Assembly (NCBI GenBank): GCA_025677835.1
Contig: JAIXMR010000018.1
Coordinates: forward strand, 124,001 to 188,000
Source of the DNA: Sporodiniella umbellata
Lineage: Eukaryota > Mucoromycota > Mucoromycetes > Mucorales > Rhizopodaceae
DNA length: 64,000 nucleotides
Direction: 5' to 3'
Every line of letters begins with the position of its first letter. Position 1 is the first letter of the stretch. The notes beneath the pieces are model-generated. The model saw only the letters and a list, made by a program, of their open reading frames with translations. It ran no database searches and was not told the origin of the DNA. Positions 30,693 to 33,520 of this stretch are shown here, in pieces. A program made the position numbers and the translations under genes.

Positions 30693-30766
30693 GCCCGACT
30701 GATGTAGCGGTTTATCATACTGTCTTCACACGACAGAGGTCGTCGGTTCGAACCCGACGTTGGGCA
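30693..30766 (+). tRNA. tRNA-Val (anticodon CAC)
   Basis: Complete cloverleaf without intron. The acceptor stem GCCCGAC pairs with GTTGGGC (one G-T pair). The D loop contains AGCGGTTTA. The anticodon stem CTGTC/GACAG encloses TTCACAC, with CAC at 30727-30729. The T arm is GTCGG TTCGAAC CCGAC with a canonical B box GGTTCGAAC. The discriminator is A and a T run at 30767 gives the RNA polymerase III terminator. It decodes the valine codon GUG. Confidence 0.95.
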
Positions 30767-31324: not shown

Positions 31325-32534
31325 ATGAAGGCAATTGTTGTAGAGAAATGGCTAAAAGGGCCTGAAGAACTTTCCGTAAAGGAACTTTCTTTCCCAGAAG
31401 CTCCCAAGAAAGGTGAAATTCAAGTTCAAGTGAAAGCAGCTGGTTTGAACTTTTTCGACATTTTAATGGTAAAAAAAAAAAGTCGAAATGCATAATTGCT
31501 TTTTTTTTTTTTTTTTTTTTTGGTGAGCTATTAACGTTTGACAGGTACAAGGCAAATACCAAACTCGACCTCCTTTCCCTTTTATCCCTGGTGGAGAATT
31601 TGCTGGTGTTGTTCTGAAATCGACTGTACCTCAATTCAAAGCAGGCGACCGTGTGTTTGGCTCTGGTAGCTCTTTTACAGAGGTTACCAACGTACCTGCG
31701 ACTCATGTGTTACCTATACCAAAGAACTTTAATTACGAACAGGCAGCTGGTATCTACCTTACTTACCCTACAAGCTATGCTGGCCTCGTTTTACGTGCTC
31801 AACTCAAAGCCGGTGAGTACTGTCTTGTGCATGGAGCTGCTGGCGGTGTAGGCGTTGCTGCCGTCCAAATCGCTAAGGCCCTAGGCGCAAAAGTAATTGC
31901 AACCGCCGGAACAAAGGAAAAACTGGAGGTGGCTAAAAACAATGGAGCCGATTTCTTGGTTAACTATCGAGACAAGGATTGGCCGGAACAAGTCAAAAAA
32001 CTCACAAACGGACATGGGGCAGATGTTGTATACGATCCAGTGGGATTGGTTGAAACTAGGTATGGCCAAAAAAAAAAAAAAAAAAGATTTACACCATAAC
32101 AGATCGTTTACAAACATACAATTGATCCACTATTTTGTAGCACAAAATGTACTGCATGGAACGGTCGTATTATCGTTGTTGGTTTTGCTCAAGGTGCTAT
32201 AGAAAAGCTTCCTACAAATCGTCTTTTGCTCAAAAATATCTCTGCAGCGTAAGAGTTTTCTTTTTTTTTTTTTTTTTTTTTTTTTTCAAATGTTTTAATT
32301 GGCCTGTTTCTTAGTGGTGTGCATTGGGGAGCCTATGTCAAAAATGAACCTGAGAGTATCCCTGAAGTATGGCGAGCCCTGTTTGGGCTATTTGAATCGG
32401 ACAAGTTGAAGCCTGCTCTTTACTCGAAAATCTATACACTCGATACTGTCCCACAAGGCCTAATGGCTATTCGCGACCGCACATCCTTTGCCAAGGTGGT
32501 TGCAAAAATAGGTGGTGAAGATAGCAAACTCTAG
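31325..32534 (+). CDS. zinc-less MDR quinone oxidoreductase (NADPH:quinone reductase-like)
   Basis: Medium-chain dehydrogenase/reductase using NADPH to reduce quinones or enones, cytosolic. Exons 31325-31468, 31545-32059, 32141-32248 and 32315-32534 sum to 329 codons (328 residues), the usual size. N-terminal GroES-like domain: MKAIVVEKWLKGPEELSVKE, LNFFDILMVQGKY, PFPFIPGGEFAGVV. The Rossmann nucleotide loop is CLVHGAAGGVGVAAVQIAKA and the second strand AKVIATAGTKEKLEVAKNNG. Structural and catalytic zinc ligands are absent, as in the QOR subfamily. ATG 31325 is the first in frame and starts at the conserved MKA. It converges with eL24, 173 bp between stops. Confidence 0.9.
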
Positions 32535-32707: not shown

Positions 32708-33520
32708 TTAACGAGAAGTGGCAGCAGCCTTAGGAGCGAAACCCTTAGCTTGTTGCTTGCTGACCTTGGATTGACCCTAAGAGTAGAGATGTAAATTTTA
32801 TAGCCCATTTTTATGATTTTTTCTTTTTTTTTTTTTTTTAAAAAAAAAAGAAAACTTACAGCAGGAGCAGATGCCTTTTTAGCAGCAGCAGCAGCTTTCT
32901 TAGCATCTTTGCTTTTGGAAATAGCAGCTTGACGGGCGGCAGCACGAGCATCAGGCTTTTGGTTACGCTTTGCGCGGATGGCATCCCAAGAGGCACCGAC
33001 AACAGCACGTTCATGCTTGACAGTACGGCGGGATCTCTTCTTTTGGACTTCTTCAGTCATACCCTTCTTGTTCAAACGACGGTAAATGGCGGTCCATCTG
33101 ATCTTACGGGGATTCAAACGTTGAAGAAAGTAAGATTCGGTCTTACCGTTGATGAATTTGAAAGTCTATTTGAAAACGAGTGTTACTTCGAGGCTGTCGA
33201 ATATTAAAGCGTCATTATATACTTCGAACTATACGTACTCTAGAAAATTATAAGGAAAAAGATAAGTCATTTTTGCAACCTTGGCTATTTTTTTTTTTTT
33301 TTTTTTTTTTTGCTCCTTTGTCTCCCTTTTTTTTTTTTTTTTTTTTTTTTTACCTGCTATCGATACGAACATAGGTCTTACCCTTAGCAGGGTAGATCTT
33401 TTGACCAGAGAAAGAACAAATCTCGAGCCTTTTTTTTTAAATTTTGTGTTTCCAGATAGGCATGTTTTCGATTAGTAATTGTATGTGGATGGATGGATGG
33501 ATGGCTGACTCTTACTTCAT
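32708..33520 (-). CDS. RPL24: 60S ribosomal protein eL24 (RPL24)
   Basis: Late-assembling 60S protein. Minus-strand exons 33520-33516 (ATGAA, 5 nt), 33428-33354, 33239 (a single A), 33165-32860 and 32776-32708 sum to exactly 152 codons (151 residues; family usually 155-160). Start is MKLEICSFSGQKIYPAKGKT, the classic eL24 opening, then YVRIDSR, TFKFINGKTESYFLQRLNPR, KIRWTAIYRRLNKKG and a Lys/Ala-rich tail ending in TSR. Exon 2 leaves two bases (AG), while TFKF needs phase 0. Only one extra base fits, and TTTTCTAG-A-GTACGT at 33243-33233 supplies it with good splice sites. Long T/A runs fill the introns. Gene identity is certain; the one-base exon is a prediction. Confidence 0.93.
33239..33239 (-). 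other. predicted single-nucleotide exon of eL24
   Basis: One base, A, lies between a strong acceptor (TTTTCTAG, ending 33240) and a strong donor (GTACGT, from 33238). Adding it turns AG + A into Arg and joins IDSR to TFKF with no gap relative to other eL24 proteins. Without it every single-intron model is out of frame or meets a stop. A 10-nt alternative (33239-33230, donor GTTCGA) keeps frame but inserts three residues. Confidence 0.6.
33487..33506. repeat. GGAT tetranucleotide repeat
   Basis: About five GGAT units in the first intron of eL24. Confidence 0.85.

Follow-up and report, generated by a model that had tools for sequence, protein, structure and literature searches.

A predicted one-nucleotide exon in the eL24 genes of the mucoralean fungus Sporodiniella umbellata

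In the genome of Sporodiniella umbellata (Mucorales, Rhizopodaceae; 25.9 Mb in 198 contigs), the segment that separates two coding exons of a gene for the ribosomal protein eL24 very probably consists of two U2-type introns, parted by an exon of a single base, an A that completes the AGA codon of Arg27. The gene occupies 33520-32708 on the minus strand of the window, by which we mean the whole 64-kb stretch of DNA analysed (contig C90, positions 124001-188000); the divided segment runs from 33353 to 33166 and the lone A stands at 33239. A genome search recovered two further eL24 genes, on contigs C1 and C133, and with the lone A each of the three copies has a 456-nt CDS.

The gene model and its three paralogous copies

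The gene model for the copy in the window comprises the following features:

33516 to 33520, minus strand: exon with the start codon, first 5 coding bases ATGAA; ATGAA-GTAA is identical in both paralogues
33429 to 33515, minus strand: intron 1, 87 nt, GTAAGA...AAG
33354 to 33428, minus strand: exon 2, 75 nt, 3' end AGC AG, phase 2
33240 to 33353, minus strand: predicted intron 2a, 114 nt, GTAAAA...TTTTCTAG, with two long A-runs; counterparts of 81 nt (C1) and 69 nt (C133)
33239 to 33239, minus strand: predicted one-nucleotide exon (A), completing AGA (Arg27) as its third base; motif shared by the three paralogues, and C133 prediction identical to the public protein P0001
33166 to 33238, minus strand: predicted intron 2b, 73 nt, GTACGT...AAATAG; counterparts of 85 nt (C1) and 73 nt (C133)
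32860 to 33165, minus strand: TFKF exon, 306 nt, opening ACT TTC AAA TTC
32777 to 32859, minus strand: intron 3, 83 nt, GTAAGT...TTAG
32708 to 32776, minus strand: last coding exon, 69 nt, stop TAA

With the lone A, the CDS in the window amounts to 456 nt including the stop and translates to an ungapped protein of 151 aa; re-translation thus confirmed both the coordinates and the coding sum of the first-pass annotation. The product gives a full-length family match and is identified as eL24 by its similarity to the public S. umbellata protein P0001 (PF01246; E 7e-86), which itself matches a solved eL24 chain (E 1.1e-44) and is identical, Arg27 included, to the translation of the C133 copy. The first exon of 5 nt given in that annotation is right as to its five coding nucleotides, the figure counting the coding part without the 5' UTR. 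This five-base coding start (ATGAA) is common to all three copies; as an MK[LITV][ED] N-terminus is present in only 49 of 120 homologous public eL24 models, so tiny a coding start may likewise be wrongly annotated in many models, from Mortierella and Mucorales alike. The window also holds a tRNA gene on the plus strand (30693-30766; Rfam tRNA, 53.8 bits).

Exon 2 ends in ...GAT AGC AG at 33354, where it adjoins GTAAAA, and the next exon starts from 33165, after AAATAG. When exon 2 is joined straight to the TFKF exon, the reading shifts out of frame, and each of the three copies meets a stop at codon 44. The lone A lies in the context TTTTCTAG-A-GTACGT, and in all three paralogues an acceptor AG and a donor GT stand exactly one base apart, with flanking introns of the GT-AG type; each of the three paralogous introns contains a single AGNGT. 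Enumeration of the GT-AG, GC-AG and AT-AC single-intron parses around the junction yielded none that restores the full protein. To this extent the earlier claim that no single intron works holds, but a parse that pairs the GT at 33370 with the usual acceptor keeps the frame in every copy, at the cost of the conserved VRIDSR. Under rules that fixed the outer sites, required both introns to be GT-AG and at least 40 nt long, and allowed a single internal exon whose length is 1+3k and at most 61 nt, the in-frame two-intron parses number one in C1, two in C90 and one in C133. The second C90 parse has a 10-nt internal exon that is absent from C1 and C133, and the predicted single A giving AGA, as first proposed from the window alone, is the sole parse common to all three. 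The spliced junctions so predicted read ...GATAGCAG-A-ACTTTCAAATTC in C90, ...GACTCCAG-A-ACTTTCAAG in C1 and ...GATTCTAG-A-ACTTTCAAATTC in C133. In silico, both frame and conserved protein depend on the lone A: every copy runs into a premature stop not only when the A is skipped (codon 44), but also when intron 2a (codon 28) or 2b (codons 34-35) is retained.

The copies differ from one another at 1-3 of 151 residues, as against third-position differences in 32-47 of 152 codons, indicating that silent sites are well diverged and that the copies look to be under purifying selection. The undivided intron at the junction measures 167 nt in C1, 188 nt in C90 and 143 nt in C133, and the three sequences scarcely align; besides the outer splice sites and scattered columns, the sole long intron-internal block in their three-way alignment is TAG-A-GTA[AC]GT with its T-rich lead, the form in C1 and C133 being TAG-A-GTAAGT. 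Of 20,000 dinucleotide shuffles of each intron, 1 (C1), 3 (C90) and 7 (C133) contained TAGAGTA[AC]GT; given the common descent of the copies, these probabilities cannot be combined by multiplication. TAGAGTAMGT occurs 128 times genome-wide (25.9 Mb, both strands), so that the 498 intron bases concerned would be expected to hold about 0.001 occurrences; they hold 3, in paralogues and hence non-independent. The motif has outlived most of the surrounding eL24 intron and is more than chance. In the genome as a whole it shows no general excess (128 versus 118 for the reversed control), and so is no pointer to many such exons. Three other [CT]AGNGTANGT sites lie within the 64-kb window, and the sequence around one of them, at 31767, looks by eye like the opposite strand of a coding stretch.

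In their lengths and splice signals, 2a and 2b look like introns in their own right. The respective lengths are 81 and 85 nt in C1, 114 and 73 nt in C90, and 69 and 73 nt in C133; five of these six half introns, at 69-85 nt, fall inside the range of introns 1 and 3 of these genes, which served as controls (50-87 nt), and the sixth, 2a of C90 with its two A-runs, is longer than every control intron. A strict YTRAY branch point lies at most 60 nt from the acceptor in five of the six; within that distance none was found in 2a of C90, nor in four of the six control introns. Compared with the U1 consensus, the 2a donors match at 8, 7 and 7 of 9 positions (C1, C90, C133), including 2-3 of the 3 on the exon side, and the 2b donors at 7, 6 and 7, with one exon-side match and the rest within the GTAAGT or GTACGT hexamer.

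A-runs are found in both 2a and 3 of the C90 gene, and both introns are longer than their paralogue counterparts. Homopolymer A/T runs of at least 14 number 65 in the window, 58 to the left of 33,352 and 7 to its right, and are densest at about 11000-33400. Their density is patchy along C90, where 19 other stretches (18 of 10 kb, one of 4 kb) hold 0 to 16.

eL24 models from other fungi

Public eL24 homologues were surveyed through the 120 of 358 that were listed, all 120 sequences being examined at the protein level and the junction being scored by the fixed pattern VRxD[SN][RK]-xF. We divide them into 60 models from Mucorales, 6 from Umbelopsis and 54 others, a split in which the membership of genera in Mucorales, Sporodiniella excepted, is our own assignment; the 54 include 16 Mortierellomycota by name and several without an organism name (e.g., P0044, P0045, P0106 and P0113). 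Among these 120 of 358, the junction is intact in all 54 listed homologues outside Mucorales and Umbelopsis, whereas it is broken in 41 of the 60 Mucorales models and in all six Umbelopsis models listed, the other 19 Mucorales models being intact. Assigned row by row by hand, to classes that were defined after viewing the sequences, the 41 broken Mucorales models comprise nine of an upstream-donor type that lose VRxDSR (seen also in two of the six Umbelopsis models), eight with RV[RSC] straight after D[SN] and 24 of a mixed 'other' class. RV[RSC], that is, Arg-Val followed by Arg, Ser or Cys, is the expected read-through of A plus GTNNGT; the models with it come from Rhizopus stolonifer (two), Mucor fragilis, M. 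circinelloides (two), Absidia glauca, Rhizomucor pusillus and Lichtheimia ornata.

Six models have an insert after D[SN] that does not begin with RV: SA, SANMC, RYVPM, RR, RYAQ and SVLNPFRLYCR. The RY inserts can be read as AGG TAY, with exon 2 continuing into intron 2a, and the CR that precedes TF in SVLNPFRLYCR would be as from TGT AGA. In the Choanephora model P0034, exon 2 appears in the other frame and the whole 70-nt intron 2a would be decoded, with AYR (TAY AGR) before TFRF. Exon 2 of the gene in the window carries GGTAAGACC (AAG GGT AAG ACC; 33382-33374), a strong cryptic donor, and some public Mucorales models, P0031, P0033 and P0039, seem to use this donor while reading exon 2 in a different frame (TFRF is preceded by ...ILPR or TLPR). 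Searches for fungal eL24 DNA in bacterial and archaeal genome contigs (130 and 57 pattern matches) and in viral contigs (7 pattern matches) yielded none that was confirmed.

As the data from other species are protein models, they bear on the exon indirectly; conservation at the DNA level concerns the three S. umbellata paralogues. Together these suggest that the lone-A exon is probably kept in much of Mucorales and perhaps in Umbelopsis as well. The possibility that relatives keep CTAG-A-GT, raised in the first-pass annotation, is thus borne out by the two same-genome paralogues, which have TAG-A-GT, and indirectly, through the broken models, for other Mucorales.

Rival readings of the junction

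Arg27 could also arise from one long intron whose donor is shifted by one base, AGG/TAA...TAG/ACT, such that its ends are TA and AG. The G is present in all three copies, and in each this intron gives the same protein at the right length. We know of no U2 or U12 intron type with TA-AG ends, and such an intron would leave unexplained the conserved TAG-A-GTA[AC]GT, the half-intron lengths and the RV[RSC] models, so that we regard it as very unlikely. Still less probable is a single GT-AG intron from the donor at 33370 (TAT/GTTCGT), by which eL24 would be six residues shorter and lack VRIDSR. While this parse is in frame in the three copies and its type is seen in 9 of the 60 Mucorales and 2 of the 6 Umbelopsis public models, it removes a segment that is intact in all 54 listed homologues outside these groups, is ungapped in the three alignments shown of the 86 matched to solved-structure sequences, and is kept in full in 19 of the 60 Mucorales models, P0001 among them. 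Moreover, the GT at 33370 is merely part of a Val codon, and the conserved motif is left unexplained by this donor too.

The 10-nt internal exon AGTACGTATA (33239-33230), mentioned in the first-pass annotation as an alternative ending at 33230, would add Val-Arg-Ile after the Arg; it is indeed open and in frame in C90, but it is unavailable in C1 and C133, and its three extra residues compare with none in the 54 listed homologues outside Mucorales and Umbelopsis, which makes it highly improbable. Two full tandem introns with an acceptor beside a donor are also what recursive splicing presents, and the site might be a stwintron or a zero-length ratchet point, with zero bases retained between the two removals. 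Joining with zero bases, however, leads in all three copies to the frame loss and early stop described above, and the GTACGT or GTAAGT donor is uninterrupted, whereas that of a stwintron would be split by an internal intron; the probability of this reading is negligible. The long A-runs inside intron 2a of C90 could point to an assembly error or a pseudogene with a base missing at the exon edge, but the identical arrangement recurs at three loci on three contigs, the runs are intronic, and the excess of third-position over amino acid differences suggests purifying selection, rendering this explanation vanishingly improbable. Against the lone A itself stand the over-long 2a of C90 without a strict YTRAY, the shared descent of the three paralogues, the indirect nature of the protein models from other species, the 19 of 60 intact Mucorales models, the 24 of 41 broken ones in the mixed class, the six non-RV inserts, and the shifted single intron that would likewise encode Arg. 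On weighing these points, the one-nucleotide exon appears to be by far the best reading of the eL24 junction.

Known one-base exons and the splicing of eL24

One-base exons probe the lower limit of spliceosomal joining, and few are known; placozoan mitochondrial cox1 is reportedly among the entries in this literature. Their rarity was nevertheless overstated in the first-pass annotation, which spoke of one described in Arabidopsis: the plant VPS55, Fusarium CYP621A and Candida snoRNA host cases are in print. In plants, APC11 is described as having a constitutive, frame-essential one-nucleotide exon that was missed by annotation and is conserved in most land plants (PMC4674806; PMC8831610). As presented there, it resembles the predicted eL24 exon in being a single base between two introns that is needed for the frame; it differs in gene and kingdom, and it is proven by RNA and reporter constructs, whereas the eL24 exon is predicted from the sequence of three paralogues. 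The account of VPS55 reports a strong GTRAGT donor after a one-nucleotide microexon that causes misannotation; in flowering plants the exon is found in one paralogue clade and absent in the other, and in some species its inclusion alternates with retention (PMC8831610). That donor is comparable to the GTAAGT or GTACGT of eL24, but, unlike in VPS55 as there described, all three S. umbellata paralogues carry the motif.

Among fungi, Fusarium CYP621A, a P450 gene described as seldom expressed, is reported from RNA reads in one genus to have a one-nucleotide exon, a G that is the second base of a Gly codon; the host intron exceeds twice the median length and the exon is conserved among orthologues (PMC12940212). 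By this description it shares with eL24 a fungal nuclear coding gene whose frame is rescued by AG-N-GT within a long intron. The eL24 exon would differ in its base (A), in residing in a ribosomal protein gene and in being probably order-wide, and it is predicted here from sequence. CYP621A is termed the first case in a fungal gene (PMC12940212), but single-base exons were described earlier in Candida, in snoRNA host transcripts with introns parted by one base (PMC5033589). These hosts, as characterized in that source, have no protein-coding potential, and hence no reading frame would be at stake, unlike in eL24. Stwintrons, known in Ascomycota, and recursive sites are, as far as their account extends, like eL24 in that adjoining or nested introns are removed consecutively, consistent with intron definition, and unlike it in that zero bases are kept, or an inner intron interrupts a donor or an acceptor (PMC6616335). 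In the open-licence literature, judged by title and abstract, we found no one-base exon reported for any ribosomal protein gene or for Mucoromycota, and the predicted eL24 case would add to a known but very small class.

We propose that 2a and 2b are most likely excised sequentially, by intron definition: with the acceptor AG and the donor GT one base apart, U2AF and U1 could hardly be bound together, which would impose stepwise removal. Such stepwise splicing is one possibility that was proposed for APC11 by Guo and Liu (PMC4674806). Whether or not 2a has been removed, the trinucleotide before the second donor is AGA, since the ...AG of exon 2 plus the A rebuilds the AGA seen at the intron end, ...TAG-A; this donor should therefore be equally usable before and after the first step, and either order of removal is possible. 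The exon would probably be constitutive. As the skipped and half-retained products carry an early stop, a putative control of eL24 splicing through stop-bearing products is possible.

With three paralogues in a single genome, and probably many species sharing the arrangement, splicing order, donor strength and origin can be tested directly. Mucorales includes fungi of medical and industrial importance, and the lone-A exon would explain why most of the order's public eL24 models (41 of the 60 listed) fail at a single junction; it also directs annotators to the cause. More tentatively, and in a form that we consider conceivable but on balance doubtful, the one-base exon might have become fixed in the ancestor shared by Mucorales and Umbelopsidales and have survived the later eL24 duplications, forcing ordered two-step splicing across the group and offering a possible control point. 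If this were true group-wide, an essential ribosomal protein gene would be under obligatory, ordered two-step splicing throughout Mucorales and Umbelopsidales.
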